A stretch of DNA of 44,181 bases from positions 1 to 44,181 of the forward strand of contig REEG01000134.1 in the NCBI GenBank assembly GCA_007695195.1. Direction: 5' to 3'. The stretch comes from Gemmatimonadales bacterium (GTDB lineage Bacteria > Gemmatimonadota > Gemmatimonadetes > Longimicrobiales > Gaopeijiaceae). A program made the translations under genes and the position numbers. The first letter of the stretch is position 1. Each line of letters begins with the position of its first letter. Positions 32,732 through 40,400 of the stretch are shown piece by piece. The notes below the pieces were generated by a model that was not told the origin of the DNA, ran no database searches, and worked only from the letters and a program-made list of their open reading frames with translations.

Positions 32732-33097
32732 ATGGCTGTCCTGGATCCTGAGCATGTCGAGTCCGGCGTGACCCCTGTCCGCCTGAACCTCACCGCGTCG
32801 GCCCTGGAGCGCATCCGTGAGATGCTGGCTGAAGAGGACCTCCTGGAGGAAGGGGGGCTGCGCATCACCATGAAGCCCGGCGCCGGGTGTTCCGGGACGC
32901 CCAGGTTCGGAATGGTCATGGAGGTGGAGCCGGACGACGATGACACGGTCCTGGAGGCCGATGGGGTCCGCATCTTCCTGGATCCCACCAGCGCTTGGGC
33001 GTTGGATGGGCTCCGCCTGGATTGGGTGGATTCTCCTACCATGGGATCAGGGTTCGCCTTCCAGCACCCGCGCGGTCGCGGCGGCCGGGCCTGCTGA
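32732..33097 (+). CDS. Atypical HesB/IscA-like protein
   Basis: 121 residues with the A-type iron-sulfur carrier fold: LTASALERIREML, GLRITMKPGAGCSGTPRFGM and DGVRIFLDPTSAWALDGLRLDW. Typical IscA/ErpA proteins bind iron or clusters with one Cys in GGCSG and two in a C-terminal CGCG motif. Here the first Cys is kept (about 53), but the C-terminal motif reads MGSGFAF, with a single Cys as the last residue. The ligand set is therefore altered, and the protein may not carry a cluster in the normal way. The ATG at 32732 has only a weak ribosome-binding site; GTG at 32669 is an alternative giving a 21-residue extension. Confidence 0.78.
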   Translation: MAVLDPEHVESGVTPVRLNLTASALERIREMLAEEDLLEEGGLRITMKPGAGCSGTPRFGMVMEVEPDDDDTVLEADGVRIFLDPTSAWALDGLRLDWVDSPTMGSGFAFQHPRGRGGRAC

Positions 33098-33137
33098 GGT
33101 TGGGAAGTCCGGGGAAGGGATTCAGGGTTTGTCGCTG

Positions 33138-34133
<996 letters not shown>

Positions 34134-34137
34134 CGTC

Positions 34138-34167
34138 CTGAACGTTCAGTAGAAATTGAACGTTCAG
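34138..34167. promoter_or_regulatory. Tandem palindromic operator of efflux operon
   Basis: CTGAACGTTCAG (34138-34149) is a perfect 12-bp palindrome. TGAACGTTCA, its core, recurs at 34157-34166. The centres are 18 bp apart, close to two helical turns, so two dimers would sit on nearly the same DNA face. The site lies about 50 bases before the GbsR/MarR-type regulator gene, which heads the efflux operon, so autoregulation by that protein is the simplest reading. Confidence 0.72.
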
Positions 34168-34219
34168 AATAGCGTGGTGTTTTCTTCTCCACCTCCCCCT
34201 CCCCCAGGTGTCGTTTCCC

Positions 34220-34717
34220 ATGCATAAGGACTCCGAGCGGTTCATCGAGCGGATGGGCCTTCAGTTCGAGACGGACGGGCTTCCGCGCACGGCCGGGCGG
34301 ATCATGGGGCTGCTCCTCCTCAGGGAAGCGCCCCTCTCCCTGGACGACATTTCCGGTGAGTTGGGCGTGAGCAAGGGGTCTTCTTCCACCAACTGCCGAC
34401 TGTTGGAGAGTGGCGGATGGGCGGAGCGGGTGTCGCGCCGCGGCGATCGCCGGGACTTCTACCAGGTGGCGCCGGACATGGCGCTGCGGAGTCTCGACGC
34501 GGCCCAGACCAGGATCAAGTCTCTCCTGGCCCTCCTCGACGACGCTCTGGAGAGCCTGCCGGCAGAGCTGGAGACCGGGCGCCGTAGGATCCGGGCCGTG
34601 GGGGATTTCCACCGTTTTCTCGTATCCGAACTCCAGGACATCATGGAGCGTTGGGCCCGGATCGAGTCTGCTCCGGCCGAATCCGGATCGGACTTGGGGG
34701 AGGGAAGCCATGATTGA
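34220..34717 (+). CDS. GbsR/MarR-type transcriptional regulator
   Basis: 165 residues. A winged helix-turn-helix spans about 15-75: RFIERMGLQFETDGLPRTAG, LLLREAPLSLDDISGELGVS, KGSSSTNCRLLESGGWAERV, RRGDRRDFYQV. This matches GbsR-like members of the MarR superfamily. The C-terminal half is helical and may bind a ligand or mediate dimerisation. It is first in the operon and overlaps the TolC-like gene by 8 bases (ATGATTGA), so it most likely controls the efflux genes that follow, probably as a repressor released by an exported compound. GTG at 34208 is an alternative start. Confidence 0.87.
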   Translation: MHKDSERFIERMGLQFETDGLPRTAGRIMGLLLLREAPLSLDDISGELGVSKGSSSTNCRLLESGGWAERVSRRGDRRDFYQVAPDMALRSLDAAQTRIKSLLALLDDALESLPAELETGRRRIRAVGDFHRFLVSELQDIMERWARIESAPAESGSDLGEGSHD

Positions 34718-36209
34718 CGGAATCCGGAGACGGCCTGCGCATCGGTGGGTGGTTTCGATATTCGCCGCCGCAGGGCTCCTTATGGGTCTCTGGGGCATCC
34801 CCTCGGCAAACGCTCAGGAAGCGGACCGGCCACTGCGGGGCGTGGAGTCCGCCGACCCACTCCGGCTGTCTCTGGATCAGGCCGTGGAGCAGGCGCTGGA
34901 GACCGGCGAAGAGGTGCGCCTGGTGCGCGAGCAGATCCTCCAGGCCGAGGAAGAGATCACCCAGGTCCGGTCGGGGGCCTTCCCCCAGGTGTCCACCAAC
35001 CTCACCTACACCCGCCAGATCCGGAGCATCTTCGACGATCTGGCCACCATGCCCGGAATGACGCCGGGGAACGGGATGGGGAATGGGGACGATGAGAACC
35101 CCTTCGCGAACCTCCCCTTCGGCCGTCCCAACACCTGGATCGCCAGTCTGTCCATCAATCAGACTCTCTACGCCCAGGGGCAGGTCACCATCGGGCTGGA
35201 CATCGCCGAGCGGGTCCGCACCCTCCTGGCCAGGGAGCTGGACGAGACGGAGGCCGAGATTCGGGCCGAGGTGCAGCAGGCTTACTTCCAGGCGGTCTTC
35301 TCGGATCGTCTGGTGGAGATCTCCACCGAGGCATGGGAGCTGGCGGATCGCCAGTTGGAGGAAGTGCGTTCGTTCCAGGAGCGCGGCCTGGCCTCGGAAT
35401 TCGACGTCCTTACCGCTCGCGTCGAGCGGGACAACCTGCGGCCCGGGATCGTGGAGGCCGAGAACACCCGTCGCCTGGCGCGGCAGAATCTCCGGCGCCT
35501 GGTGAACCTGCCCCGGGACGGGGAGTTGGAGCTCACCACGGCCCTGGAGGCGGAGCTGTCGGATGTGGACCGGAGGGCGCTGGAAGAGGCGGTCCTGGGG
35601 CGTCCCGCCTTGCAGGCCGCTGCCGAACAGATCCGGATCCAGGAAGATCAGGTCCGCCTGGCTCGGGCCGGGTTCCGGCCGTCGGCCTCCGCCTTCGCCG
35701 ATATCGGCTACCAGGCGTTTCCCACCTCGGTGTTTCCCGGAAGCGACTGGCGGGAAGACTGGAACGTGGGGGTTCAGGTCTCCATTCCCCTCTTCACCGG
35801 CTTCCGGCGCACGGCCGAGGTGGAATCAGCCCGCTCGCAGGTCCGGACCTCGCAGCTCGAACGGCAGCGGCTCGAGGAGGGTCTCCTCCTGGAGTTCGAC
35901 GGAGCATTGGCGGAATTCGACGGTGTGCTCGCCGATGTGGAGGCTCGGCGGGGAACCGTGGAGCAGGCGACCCGGGCGCTGGAGCTGGCCGAACTCCGCT
36001 TCGCCGCCGGCTCGGCCACGGCGCTGGAAGTCTCCAACGCCCGGCTCAATCTGCAGCAGGCCCGCCTGAACGAGGCCGAGGGACTTCTGGGCTACGTGCA
36101 GGCCCTGAGTCGTCTGGAACGGGTCACGGGAGGGGAGGTGCCCCTCTTGACCACCCGCATCCAGGCGGTGGGAGAAAACCACATGGATTCCGATCCGAGG
36201 GATGGGTAG
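34710..36209 (+). CDS. TolC-like outer-membrane efflux channel
   Basis: 499 residues. A signal peptide ends at about residue 33 (SANAQ). The mature protein has the two OEP repeats of TolC: LRLSLDQAVEQALETGEEVRL opens the first, and the second begins near RRALEEAVLGRPALQAAAEQI. Long coiled-coil helices (EIRAEVQQAYFQAVFSDRL; RQRLEEGLLLEFDGALAEF) and the barrel strands WNVGVQVSIPLFTGFRR are clear. The family phrase ELRFAAGSATALEVSNARL is near the C-terminus. It would form the trimeric exit duct for the RND pump. GGAGGGAAG precedes the ATG. It overlaps its neighbour upstream, and the next gene begins 4 bases after its stop, pointing to one transcript. Confidence 0.93.
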   Translation: MIDGIRRRPAHRWVVSIFAAAGLLMGLWGIPSANAQEADRPLRGVESADPLRLSLDQAVEQALETGEEVRLVREQILQAEEEITQVRSGAFPQVSTNLTYTRQIRSIFDDLATMPGMTPGNGMGNGDDENPFANLPFGRPNTWIASLSINQTLYAQGQVTIGLDIAERVRTLLARELDETEAEIRAEVQQAYFQAVFSDRLVEISTEAWELADRQLEEVRSFQERGLASEFDVLTARVERDNLRPGIVEAENTRRLARQNLRRLVNLPRDGELELTTALEAELSDVDRRALEEAVLGRPALQAAAEQIRIQEDQVRLARAGFRPSASAFADIGYQAFPTSVFPGSDWREDWNVGVQVSIPLFTGFRRTAEVESARSQVRTSQLERQRLEEGLLLEFDGALAEFDGVLADVEARRGTVEQATRALELAELRFAAGSATALEVSNARLNLQQARLNEAEGLLGYVQALSRLERVTGGEVPLLTTRIQAVGENHMDSDPRDG

Positions 36210-36213
36210 CGAT

Positions 36214-37251
36214 ATGGCACGCATGGGACGAACCGGGTGGACCCTCTCCATCCTCGGGCTGCTCCTGGTGGTGGTTGTGGTGGTCCGGGTCTTCCAGCTT
36301 GCCGGAGACGAGGATCCGGAGCCAACCGTGGACGAGATCCGGGAGCGGAGTGGATTCGCCGTCCTGGTGGCCGAGGTGGACCGGGGAGACCTGGAGACGT
36401 GGCGGCGATTTTCCGGTACGGTCCTGGGAGAGCGGGAGGCCGTTCTCCGGGCCCGGAGCGACGACGAGATCCGGGAGATCCGGGTGTCCGTGGGGGACCG
36501 AGTGCAGGCCGGGGATCTGGTGGTCCGTCAGGCGGGTCAGGGATCCGATGCCCGGATCCGTCAGGCCCAGGCCTCTTTTGAGCAGGCGCGGCGCAACGTG
36601 GAGCGGCTGCGACCTCTCTGGGAGGCCGGCGCGCTATCCGATCAGGACTGGGATGACGCCAACACCCGACTGGAAGTGGCCGAGGCCGACCTGGAGGCCA
36701 CGGCCGAGGCCCAGGACGGCCTGGCACCCATCTTCGGCATCGTCTCCGAGGTGCCGGCGCGGGTGGGGAGCTTCCCCCAGCCCGGGGATCCCCTGGTGCA
36801 CATCGTGGACGACAGCGCCTACCGGATCCCCCTGCGCATGAGCGAGCGGCAGGCCCTCGAGATCGAGCCGGGGATGCGGGTGGAGGTGATGGGCGTCGAG
36901 ACGGCGGGATCCGTGGATCGGGTATCCATCCAGGCCGACCTTCGCACCCGGCTCGTGGAGGTGGAGGCCCGGTTTCCTGGGGCTGCCTCCCTCAGGCCCG
37001 GCACGTTGGCCGGCGTCCGGATCCTGGTGGATGCCCGGGAAGATGTGGTGCGCGTGCCGGACCAGGCCCTTCGGGACGGCGGCGTCTGGGTGGTCCGGGA
37101 CGACGATACGGTGGAATTCCGGGAGGTGGAGACGGGACTCCGGAATGACGAGATGGTAGAGGTGACGGCGGGTCTGGAGGTGGGTGAGAAGGTGGTGGTG
37201 GAGGGGGCTTCCCTCCTGTCGGACGGTGCCCGTGTGCGGGTGGTGGACTGA
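36214..37251 (+). CDS. RND efflux membrane fusion protein
   Basis: 345 residues. One N-terminal membrane anchor (WTLSILGLLLVVVVVVRVF) precedes the lipoyl-like half-motif IREIRVSVGDRVQAGDLVV, a short helical hairpin (RIRQAQASFEQARRNVERL to TAEAQDG), the second lipoyl half (IFGIVSEVPARVGSFPQPGD) and a beta-barrel/membrane-proximal end (VDRVSIQADLRTRLVEVEA; VRVPDQALRDGGVWVV). It links the permease to the TolC-like channel. Two starts are possible, 36202 (overlapping the upstream stop) and 36214; the latter has GAGGG at better spacing. Its stop overlaps the permease start (TGATG). Confidence 0.93.
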   Translation: MARMGRTGWTLSILGLLLVVVVVVRVFQLAGDEDPEPTVDEIRERSGFAVLVAEVDRGDLETWRRFSGTVLGEREAVLRARSDDEIREIRVSVGDRVQAGDLVVRQAGQGSDARIRQAQASFEQARRNVERLRPLWEAGALSDQDWDDANTRLEVAEADLEATAEAQDGLAPIFGIVSEVPARVGSFPQPGDPLVHIVDDSAYRIPLRMSERQALEIEPGMRVEVMGVETAGSVDRVSIQADLRTRLVEVEARFPGAASLRPGTLAGVRILVDAREDVVRVPDQALRDGGVWVVRDDDTVEFREVETGLRNDEMVEVTAGLEVGEKVVVEGASLLSDGARVRVVD

Positions 37252-40200
37252 TGCTCTTCCGATTCCTTCCCCGGCTGGCGGTGCAGCGGCCGGTTCTGGC
37301 GACGATGCTGGTCATCGTCTTCGCGGTCCTGGGGCTCTTCTCCTTCACCAACCTCCGGGTGGAGCTCTACCCGGATGTGGAGTTCCCGGTGGTGAGCGTG
37401 ACCACCGCCTATCCCGGCGCCGGACCCGAGGAGGTAGAGGTCCAGGTCACCGAGCCCATTGAGGACGCGGTCTCCAATATCGCCAACCTGGACAACCTCA
37501 CATCGTTTTCCCGGGACAACGTCTCCATCGTGATCATGCAGTTCGATCTGGATGTGGACGCGGATCTGGCCGCCATCGATGTGAAGGACCAGGTGGACGC
37601 CATCCGGGCCCAGCTCCCCGACGGGGTGGACCCGCCGGTGGTACAGAAGTTCGACATCGATGCCTTCCCGGTGCTGAATGTGGCGCTGTCCGGACCTCAG
37701 GGTGCGGACCTACTCTTCGATCTGGCCGATGATCAGATCCGGGAACGGCTCTCCCGGGTGGAGGGCGTGGCCGATATCAGCGTGGTGGGTGGGCGGGTCC
37801 GGGAGGTGGAGGTCCTGGTGGACCCGGATCGCCTGGACGCCTTCGACCTGACGCTCCCCGACATCGTGGAGCTGATCCGGGCCGAGAATGTATCGGTGCC
37901 GGCGGGAAGCCTCCGGAACCCCCGCACACAGACGTCCATTCGGGTGCTGGGCGAATACCGGGCCATCCGTGAACTGGAGGATCTGCGCCTCTTCGTGGCC
38001 GACGACGAGGTGGTGACGCTGGGCGAATTGGCCACCATCCGGGACGGCTACGGGGACCGGGAACAGTTGGCCCGGGCCCAGGGCCAGGAGGCCGTCTCCA
38101 TCTCGGTGCAGCGCCAGACCGACGCCAATACCGTGACCACGGTGCGGCTCCTGAGGGAAGAGCTCGACGCCATCCGCGATGAACTCCTCCCGGCCGGGGC
38201 CCAGTTGGTGGTGATCCAGGACGGCAGCGTCTTCATCAACGACGCCGTCTGGGACGTGCAGATCTCCATCCTCTTCGGGATCCTCCTCACCACGCTGGTC
38301 CTCTTCCTCTTCCTCCACTCGTGGCGCGGAACGGTGATCGCGGCGGTGGCCATGCCCGCCACCATCGTCTCCACCTTCCTCCTTCTGGACCTGGCAGGGT
38401 TCTCCCTCAACGTCATGACCCTCCTGGCGCTGGGGGTCACGGTGGGGATCCTGGTGACCAACACCATCGTGGTGCTGGAGAACATCTACCGGTATCTGGA
38501 TCAGGGGAAGACACCGGAAGAAGCGGCGGAAGAAGGAACGGCGGAGATCGGGATCGCCGTGGCGGCATCGGCCCTCACCAACGTGGTGGTGTTCAGCCCC
38601 ATTGCCTTCATGGAGGGGATCCTGGGGCAGTTCTTCTACGCCTTCGGCCTCACGGTGGTCTTCGCCACCATCTTCTCCCTCCTCATCTCATTCATTCTCC
38701 CGCCGCTATTGGGTGCTCGGATCCTGCGCCGAAACGAGTCGGAGCGGAGCCGGGATACCTGGCTGCGCCCCCTTTGGGATCGGTGGGACGCCGGGTATGC
38801 AGGAATCCTGGGCGCCTACCGAAACGGCCTGGGCTGGGCGCTGGACCGGCCCAGGAACGGATGGCTCGTCATTGGCGCCGTGGGAGTGTTCTTCGTGGGA
38901 TCCCTGGGGCTCTCGTCCCAGTTCATTGGGGGCGAGTTCTTGCCGCAGCCCGACGAGGGAGTCATTCAGATCGAACTGGAGCTTCCCTCTGATGTGAGTC
39001 TGGAACGGACGGAGGCAGTGGTTGTCCGGGCCGAGGACCTTCTGGCCGATCTGGATGATGTGGAGTCCATTCTCAGCACCGTGGCCGGCGGGACGGGCTT
39101 CATGGCCGTGGCCGAGGCCACGAATCGGGCCGAGGTCCTGGTGACGCTGGAAGCCGACCGTACACGATCGACGCAGGAGGTGATGCGGGAGATCCGGCCC
39201 CTCATGGCTTTGCTCCCGGATACGGAGGTGACGGTGCAGATGGGCGGGGGCGCGGGGGGGCCCGGGGCGGGAGCAGCCATTCAGGTCCAGGTCTCGGGGC
39301 CCGCCGAGGAGTTGGAGCAGGTGACGGAGCAGGTCACGGAGTGGGTCCGTGAGGTGGACGGCCTCACAGATGTACGGAACACCATCGATCAGCCTCGGAA
39401 CGAGCTGGTCTTCCGGCCTGATCGCGCCGCCCTGGGCGATCTGGGTCTCACGGTGGGTCAGGTGGGTAATCTGGTCCGGATCGCAGTGCAGGGCGAGGTG
39501 GCCGGAGTCTACCGGGAGGCCGGGGACGAAGTGGACATCCGGGTCCGGTTCCCGGAGAGCGAGCGGCAGCGCGCCCAGCAGTTGGAGCGTCTCCAGATCC
39601 CGGTGGACGGCGCCCGCGTGCCCCTGTCCGCCCTGGGAACCCTGGAACTGGAGGCGACGGTGCCCGCCATCCGCCGGGAGGATCGTCAGCGCGCCTACGA
39701 CGTGGAAGCGGAGATCGCGACGGGCACACTCACCGACCGGGTGGCCGCCGTGGAGGAGCGCCTGTCGGGTGAGTCCCTCCCCCCGGGGTACAGTTGGGCC
39801 ATCGGCGGAGAATTCGAGGACTTCGAGGAGGCGCTGAGTGAGATCCTTCGGGCCCTCATCCTGGCCATCATCCTCACCTACATCGTGCTGGCCATGATCC
39901 TGGAATCATTTGTGCATCCCGTCACCATCATGCTCACGCTGCCCTTGGGAGCTGCCGGCGCGGCCCTGGCCCTCATGCTGACGGCGACGCCCCTCAACAT
40001 CTTCGGGATGATGGCGGTCGTCATGCTGGTGGGGATCGTGGTGAACAACGCCATCCTCATCCTGGACTATACGCGGCAGCTCATGGACCGCGGCGCGTCG
40101 GCGGTGGAGGCTCTCCTTGAGGCGGGACCGGTACGCCTTCGTCCCATCCTCATGAGCAACGTTGCCATTGCGGTGGCCCTTCTTCCACAGGCCCTGGGCA

Positions 40201-40400
40201 CCGGGGCCGGTGCGGCCTTCCGCATTCCCATGGCCGTGGTCACCATCGGAGGTGCGGTGGTGGCGGCCGTCTTCACCCTCTTCCTGATTCCGGTGATCTA
40301 CCTGAAGGTGGAGGCGCTCCTGGCGGCGCTGCAGGCTCGCACCGCCGGAATCCGGGGGAGAATTACAGGCGAAGATCCCACAGCGGAGCCTTCGGGTTGA
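37251..40400 (+). CDS. RND efflux permease lacking canonical proton-relay residues
   Basis: 1049 residues with the AcrB layout: twelve membrane helices and two large periplasmic loops; starts FRFLPRLAVQRPVLATML, then VELYPDVEFPVVSVTTAYPG. The TM4 motif, usually GLVVDDAIVVVEN, is GILVTNTIVVLEN, so the two proton-carrying Asp (AcrB 407/408) become Thr403 and Asn404. In TM10 the relay Lys (AcrB 940, GLSAKNAIL) is Asn932 in GIVVNNAIL, and the TM11 Thr (978) appears to be Val. Asn at the TM10 site is common in RND pumps; loss of both TM4 Asp is not. The rest of the protein looks intact and the operon is tight, so decay is unlikely. Energy coupling must use other residues or another ion, or the protein works differently. 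Confidence 0.9.
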   Translation: MLFRFLPRLAVQRPVLATMLVIVFAVLGLFSFTNLRVELYPDVEFPVVSVTTAYPGAGPEEVEVQVTEPIEDAVSNIANLDNLTSFSRDNVSIVIMQFDLDVDADLAAIDVKDQVDAIRAQLPDGVDPPVVQKFDIDAFPVLNVALSGPQGADLLFDLADDQIRERLSRVEGVADISVVGGRVREVEVLVDPDRLDAFDLTLPDIVELIRAENVSVPAGSLRNPRTQTSIRVLGEYRAIRELEDLRLFVADDEVVTLGELATIRDGYGDREQLARAQGQEAVSISVQRQTDANTVTTVRLLREELDAIRDELLPAGAQLVVIQDGSVFINDAVWDVQISILFGILLTTLVLFLFLHSWRGTVIAAVAMPATIVSTFLLLDLAGFSLNVMTLLALGVTVGILVTNTIVVLENIYRYLDQGKTPEEAAEEGTAEIGIAVAASALTNVVVFSPIAFMEGILGQFFYAFGLTVVFATIFSLLISFILPPLLGARILRRNESERSRDTWLRPLWDRWDAGYAGILGAYRNGLGWALDRPRNGWLVIGAVGVFFVGSLGLSSQFIGGEFLPQPDEGVIQIELELPSDVSLERTEAVVVRAEDLLADLDDVESILSTVAGGTGFMAVAEATNRAEVLVTLEADRTRSTQEVMREIRPLMALLPDTEVTVQMGGGAGGPGAGAAIQVQVSGPAEELEQVTEQVTEWVREVDGLTDVRNTIDQPRNELVFRPDRAALGDLGLTVGQVGNLVRIAVQGEVAGVYREAGDEVDIRVRFPESERQRAQQLERLQIPVDGARVPLSALGTLELEATVPAIRREDRQRAYDVEAEIATGTLTDRVAAVEERLSGESLPPGYSWAIGGEFEDFEEALSEILRALILAIILTYIVLAMILESFVHPVTIMLTLPLGAAGAALALMLTATPLNIFGMMAVVMLVGIVVNNAILILDYTRQLMDRGASAVEALLEAGPVRLRPILMSNVAIAVALLPQALGTGAGAAFRIPMAVVTIGGAVVAAVFTLFLIPVIYLKVEALLAALQARTAGIRGRITGEDPTAEPSG

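Follow-up and report, generated by a model that had tools for sequence, protein, structure and literature searches.

The element that precedes a MarR-type gene in the window (the whole 44,181-nt stretch of DNA that was analysed) is probably the autoregulatory operator of the repressor encoded by that gene, a reading to which we assign a probability of about 0.85 on the basis of sequence comparison. The repressor would be of the Rv0678 (MmpR5) kind, and the operator is read as a single inverted repeat about a dyad axis at 34152.5. An earlier note on this DNA had described two palindromes with centres 18 bp apart ahead of the MarR-type gene, and these are present as described: read directly from the sequence, CTGAACGTTCAG contains a palindrome at 34139-34148 (centre 34143.5), and a second copy of TGAACGTTCA is centred at 34161.5. 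The gene order given for the row that follows, regulator-TolC-MFP-RND, also matches the domain matches of the ORFs (Table 1). The operator proposed here is exact and checkable. It would belong to a group of efflux repressors represented here chiefly by uncultured bacteria, and it illustrates that a symmetry centre which seems evident from one genome may have to be moved once relatives are compared.

Table 1. Features of the putative operator region and of the efflux gene row in the window
Feature	Position	Strand	Remarks
Core operator	34143..34162	+	Inverted repeat CGTTCAGT-AGAA-ATTGAACG, dyad axis 34152.5
Extended 34-bp operator	34136..34169	+	Outer half-sites TCC (34136-34138) and GAA (34167-34169)
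A/T pairs of extended operator	34141-34142 and 34163-34164	+	Same offsets informative in 67 other sites
First palindrome, CTGAACGTTCAG	34138..34149	+	Inner half-site 34144-34148 plus poorly conserved outer arm
Second palindrome, TGAACGTTCA	34157..34166	+	Inner half-site 34157-34161 plus poorly conserved outer arm
Tentative promoter	34130..34157	+	TTGACG 34130-34135, 16-bp spacer, weak -10 GAAATT 34152-34157 (3/6 letters)
MarR-type regulator, 165 aa	34220..34717	+	PF12802, 32.3 bits (cut-off 27); probable operator binder
TolC-family outer-membrane efflux protein	34710..36209	+	PF02321, 175 bits; 8-bp overlap with regulator gene
RND periplasmic adaptor (membrane fusion protein)	36202..37251	+	TIGR01730, 174.6 bits (cut-off 94.9); 8-bp overlap with TolC-type gene
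RND inner-membrane transporter, AcrB-type	37251..40400	+	PF00873, 790.6 bits; 1-bp overlap with adaptor gene

The extended operator ends 50 bp before the ATG of the regulator gene; a GTG at 34208 is an alternative start and would lengthen the protein by four residues. Because the genes from 34220 to 40400 overlap end to start, they are likely to be carried on one transcript.

Evidence for autoregulation, as the earlier note had proposed it, came from phylogenetic footprinting, which supports the claim well: a conserved element precedes the regulator gene in relatives. Searches found the regulator in 28 of 57 genomes, and in 45 of the 154 genomes of the order once the threshold was tightened; both counts include the window's own genome. 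A TolC-type match lies downstream in 25 of the 29 loci L005-L033; the four loci that lack it are L006, at a contig edge, L018, where a second regulator copy comes next, and L030 and L031, with none. In named genomes, a scan recovered 41 regulator loci, 13 of them titled as Gemmatimonadota of some kind. The remaining titles, of which those of MAGs may be wrong, are Chloroflexi or Ktedonobacteria, Proteobacteria, Verrucomicrobia, Deinococcales, Thermaceae, Actinobacteria and others. Upstream regions of relatives carry CGTTCAGTATTGACTGAACG or close forms of it, and the match to CGTTCAGTATTGACTGAACG went beyond all 200 shuffles in 25 of 30 loci, window included; the shuffle fractions of the other five were 0.005, 0.01, 0.015, 0.03 and 0.085.

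A larger set of upstream regions was assembled from tblastn matches, of which those under about 180 bases were dropped. Merging those that share an identical protein core brought the 120 remaining regulator matches down to 82, and omission of L063 (less than 60 bp upstream) left 81 non-redundant upstream regions. With a leave-one-out profile, 68 of these 81 regions, window included, have a site that exceeds the 99th percentile of the pooled shuffles, a count that is partly circular because these loci are also where the consensus had first been recognised. In the other 13 regions no site reached this level: L071, which falls just below, L105, L074, L113, L110, L066, L065, L067, L018, L068, L111, L112 and L109; six of the 13 belong to the window's own family. 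Since the consensus came from the same data, a profile trained on 47 other sites was applied to held-out loci titled as other phyla, where it found a site at p<0.01 in 16 of 24. Three of the eight misses have p values of 0.015-0.035, while L065, L066, L067, L068 and L074 show nothing. L037 and L043, whose record titles looked doubtful, were excluded from both training and test. The training sites had been placed by a profile that included all loci, so the held-out test is not wholly independent and answers the circularity in part.

The conserved site has the form TTC-nnnn-CGTTCAGT-ATTG-ACTGAACG-nnnn-GAA, with its axis equivalent to 34152.5, between both palindromes. Column statistics were taken from 67 of the 68 sites, the window's own being omitted, with C34143 numbered as position 0. 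The information shared between mirror-complement columns amounts to 18.3 bits about 34152.5, against 10.0 bits for the next best axis; the same symmetry measure gives 4.6 bits at 34143.5 and 5.4 bits at 34161.5, the centres of the two palindromes. In these 67 sites, positions 2-7 (TTCAGT) and 12-17 (ACTGAA) hold 0.85-2.26 bits, positions 9-10 (within TTGAC) 1.2-1.3 bits, the outer positions -7/-6 (TT) and 25/26 (AA) 0.84-1.16 bits, and the A/T pairs at -2/-1 and 20/21 0.59-0.67 bits. The half-site centres at -6, 4.5, 14.5 and 25 are spaced by 10.5, 10 and 10.5 bp, and all four therefore lie on one side of the DNA. Within the window, the best match to the 34-bp profile is the operator itself, at 31.9 bits, the next place scoring 12.0 bits; positions beyond the 20-bp core contribute 12.2 bits to the score of the operator.

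The inner and outer parts of the palindromes fare very differently in relatives. The inner half-sites GTTCA and TGAAC are each matched in at least four of five letters in 58 of the 67 sites, whereas the outer arms are intact in two sites (TGAA, left) and in none (TTCA, right). Mean matches to the outer arms, 1.55 of 4 letters for TGAA and 1.37 of 4 for TTCA, exceed the expected 0.88 and 0.89, and this excess is owed mostly to the A/T pair adjoining the core. Judged from these alignments, each palindrome is a conserved inner half-site joined to an outer arm largely private to the window genome. The spacing of the inner half-sites (GTTCA-N8-TGAAC) holds in relatives, whereas the two-palindrome form fails by the refuting condition named in the earlier note, since the palindromes as such are not kept before orthologous operons.

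A variant of the operator reading places two dimers symmetrically about 34152.5 on four half-sites (TTC, TTCAGT, ACTGAA and GAA) in successive major grooves. Because there are four half-sites, two dimers per site could be accommodated in a geometry other than one dimer per palindrome; each outer half-site repeats its inner neighbour in direct orientation at a distance of 9 bp, and this would leave room for a second dimer. In favour of this variant, the information outside the core, at -7/-6 and at 25/26, is mirrored across the axis. When TGAAC is scanned along the right side, its match peaks at the 9-bp offset, with a mean of 3.30 of 5 letters, while no other offset between 19 and 35 exceeds 1.69, and on the left side the scan for GTTCA peaks at the mirror offset (2.67). 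The left side is less clear-cut, however, with 2.15 for GTTCA at offset -3 and 2.27 for TGAAC at offset -4. Moreover, the outer pair stands in direct rather than inverted order to its neighbours, an arrangement that a plain pair of MarR dimers fails to explain, and a single dimer with long wing contacts could equally account for the outer half-sites. The variant is possible but somewhat doubtful.

The earlier note had instead pictured two dimers bound cooperatively to nearly one face of the DNA, each at its own 10-bp palindrome. Such a pair of independent sites is improbable. Both palindromes are perfect in the window genome, a genome of the same genus (G003) retains the left palindrome TGAACGTTCA, and the outer arms match somewhat above background across the 67 other sites, but this is outweighed by the rarity of intact outer arms, by the low symmetry at the palindrome centres and by the position of the conserved dyad midway between them. 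A distance of 18 bp corresponds to 1.71 turns (257 degrees) at 10.5 bp per turn, which does not bring the two palindromes to nearly one face. In addition, only 5 bp separate the half-site centres within one 10-bp palindrome, which leaves too little room for two MarR recognition helices.

A further possibility is that the palindromes serve an unrelated regulator, for example of the TetR type, and stand before the MarR-type gene by accident. The operator bound by BM3R1, a TetR protein, has TGAACGTTCA as its core, and MarR and TetR operators can resemble each other. This explanation is nonetheless very unlikely, because the site travels with the regulator gene between genomes. A search for GTTCAGTNTTGACTGAAC at up to one mismatch gave 22 copies in the 154 genomes of the order, 21 of which lie 60-181 bp ahead of the aligned start of the regulator; the 22nd (in G098) falls in a coding region, at the end of a truB-like ORF (named by eye). 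The two-mismatch level added 21 sites, only seven of them before a listed regulator, and a reversed control pattern gave six matches in the same search. Strong sites in other settings were not seen in the window's own genome or, apart from the copy in G098, in the 154 genomes.

The window genome itself encodes one homologue of the regulator, with no second at an E value of 0.01 or better, and holds one exact copy of CGTTCA-N8-TGAACG, the core operator, both of which support autoregulation. At up to two mismatches the same pattern occurs at 144 places in this draft genome, against 21 for the reversed pattern, an approximately sevenfold excess in view of which weaker further sites may exist. Eight of the 144, namely five one-mismatch and three two-mismatch places picked from those listed, score at most 9.3 bits; the operator itself reaches 19.7 bits, or 20.6 bits when the other strand is read. 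Given the single exact copy and the low scores of these eight places, the repressor looks local, and a strong regulon was rejected on the same grounds. A site on contig C11 with a good core was also set aside, as it overlaps the end of a transporter-like ORF (its kind judged by eye). A genome search for the palindrome, as the earlier note had suggested for defining a regulon, recovered the operator pair; the only other copy of TGAACGTTCA in the 3.92-Mb draft, on contig C59, falls within an ORF and was rejected as a regulon site.

Least credible of all is that the pair is a product of chance, or that it terminates transcription of the ORF upstream: the two copies of TGAACGTTCA are the sole identical pair of perfect 10-bp palindromes up to 40 bp apart in the window, and a scan found no terminator-like site at 33900-34300. 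Of 200 dinucleotide-shuffled versions of the whole window, three contained a comparable pair somewhere, which makes a chance pair unusual yet not impossible, and the conservation of position and sequence in relatives is a stronger argument against chance than this test.

Additional evidence for the operator reading came from promoter spacing. The operator centre contains TTGAC in 43 of the 67 other sites, and 34 of these 43 have TAnnnT exactly 17 bp further on, compared with 0-3 sites at each of the other spacers from 13 to 21 bp. Among the 24 sites without a TTGAC centre, two have TAnnnT at 17 bp. The positions of this spacing lie outside those used in the profile. A bound repressor would therefore cover the -35 element in most of the 67 sites. 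The window, together with the same-genus genomes G001 and G003, belongs to the minority without a TTGAC centre, and its site is atypical in this respect and in its weak -10. A consensus promoter scan found nothing at the window operator, while the tentative promoter listed in Table 1 would possibly place the operator over the spacer and the -10. The ORF upstream (32940-34133) has no Pfam match and contains an alternating Asp-Gly run; its stop codon lies inside the TTGACG of the tentative promoter.

The regulator belongs to the MarR superfamily by its winged-helix MarR domain (PF12802) and by fold matches to MarR proteins. The label GbsR/MarR-type used in the earlier note holds at the superfamily level; more closely, the best solved relative is 4NB5, which is Rv0678 according to PMC10156607. 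Among the solved proteins compared, 4NB5 gave E values of 9.2e-31 with a profile and 3.3e-14 with a single sequence. The predicted model of the regulator (mean pLDDT 93.4) also has 4NB5 as its best solved fold, with TM-scores of 0.83-0.84 when normalised to the length of the query and 0.93-0.94 when normalised to that of the target, and an rmsd of 1.2-1.5. The next folds, 5jbr and 1ku9, reach 0.61-0.70 overall and 0.61-0.65 by query length; other MarR proteins lie at roughly 0.3-0.6, the classical ones near 0.4. Sequence and predicted fold together make it most likely that the regulator is of the Rv0678 kind. The pump controlled by Rv0678 is MmpS5-MmpL5, whereas the window regulator heads a row of TolC, adaptor and AcrB-type RND genes, for which reason it is not filed as MmpR5 itself; MmpL5 is also a member of the RND superfamily.

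The operator points in the same direction. Rv0678 of Mycobacterium tuberculosis represses the efflux pump MmpS5-MmpL5, and the discussion in PMC10300004 gives its promoter sequence TTTCAGAGTACAGTGAAA at the transcription start, possibly the -10 region, and cites DNA-binding assays that point there. The Rv0678 element TTTCA-N8-TGAAA has the same half-site spacing as the window operator and nearly the same arms, TTTCA standing in place of GTTCA (PMC10300004). A TTCA-N8-TGAA operator, as in Rv0678/MmpR5-like regulators, is found at the window site, and its conservation before the regulator gene points to a putative MarR-type inverted-repeat operator in or near the regulator's own promoter. A fatty-acid glycerol ester has been proposed as a ligand of Rv0678 (PMC10156607), and passages of PMC10312376 give no binding consensus for Rv0678. 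Loss of Rv0678-kind repression matters for drug resistance, and the operator ties the window group to that kind.

Two other systems offer partial parallels. GbsR and OpcR of Bacillus subtilis form a subfamily of MarR, the superfamily of the window regulator, and Mj223 (1ku9), the modelling template of GbsR, ranks third among the solved fold families matched by the window regulator. The GbsR operator is an inverted repeat whose half-sites lie 4 bp apart, as do the 8-bp arms of the window operator, and the OpcR operator overlaps a -35 (PMC7396694). The GbsR and OpcR operators are, however, described there as A/T-rich and as standing before osmolyte genes (PMC7396694), whereas the neighbours of the window regulator are efflux genes rather than the osmolyte genes expected of the GbsR family. 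The window protein scores 33.9 bits with the CudC choline regulator model NF047500, against a cut-off of 218. MexR of Pseudomonas aeruginosa, a MarR protein, represses an RND pump and has inverted repeats as its sites at the promoter, but the MexR site consists of two separate inverted repeats, in contrast to one extended dyad at the window. MexR is named neither among the 14 solved sequences matched by profile nor among the 50 fold matches listed. Of the operator strings searched for in open PMC papers, TGAACGTTCA alone appears, under titles on other systems, and three longer strings appear in none; among the open PMC papers that a search on autoregulated MarR/RND/TolC operators brought up, none contains the word Gemmatimonadetes.

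Taken as the operator of a dimeric Rv0678-kind repressor, the site suggests the following mechanism. The two recognition helices of the dimer would enter the inner half-sites TTCAGT and A(C/T)TGAA, whose centres are 10 bp, or one turn, apart about 34152.5. Wings or further subunits may add contacts to the flanking A/T pairs and to the outer TTC and GAA triplets, which lie on the same face, roughly a turn farther from the axis. The bound repressor would block RNA polymerase at the promoter and so keep the regulator and the TolC-MFP-RND pump genes off, and a ligand or pump substrate would release it and turn the genes on.

In sampled loci of relatives, the genes downstream of the regulator encode an ABC exporter in L045, L047, L053, L060 and L064, an RND transporter in L051, L052 and L059, and sugar-modification functions in L072. 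A tentative wider reading, to which we give somewhat less than an even chance, is that this Rv0678-kind branch of MarR proteins uses a four-half-site operator across several phyla while its exporter switches from TolC-RND to ABC. The operator centre would be re-used either as a -35 (TTGAC) or, in further lineages that include the genus of the window, as another sequence that possibly holds the -10, so that one interface would serve two promoter designs. As part of the same tentative reading, the four half-sites would form two direct-repeat pairs around the dyad, in four successive major grooves on one face.

Several loci depart from the common pattern. The operator is absent from L065, L066 and L068 (titled Microbacterium and Auraticoccus), and in L065 and L068 at least, other inverted repeats with TTCACGAA/TTCGTGAA-like arms precede the regulator. 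The Verrucomicrobia-titled loci L071, L072 and L075 have arms of the CGTTTA/TAAACG type. Duplicate regulators occur in tandem in L107 (G034) and L108 (G048) and divergently in L022 (G008), and the second regulator copies of L107 and L108 have an operator centre other than TTGAC.
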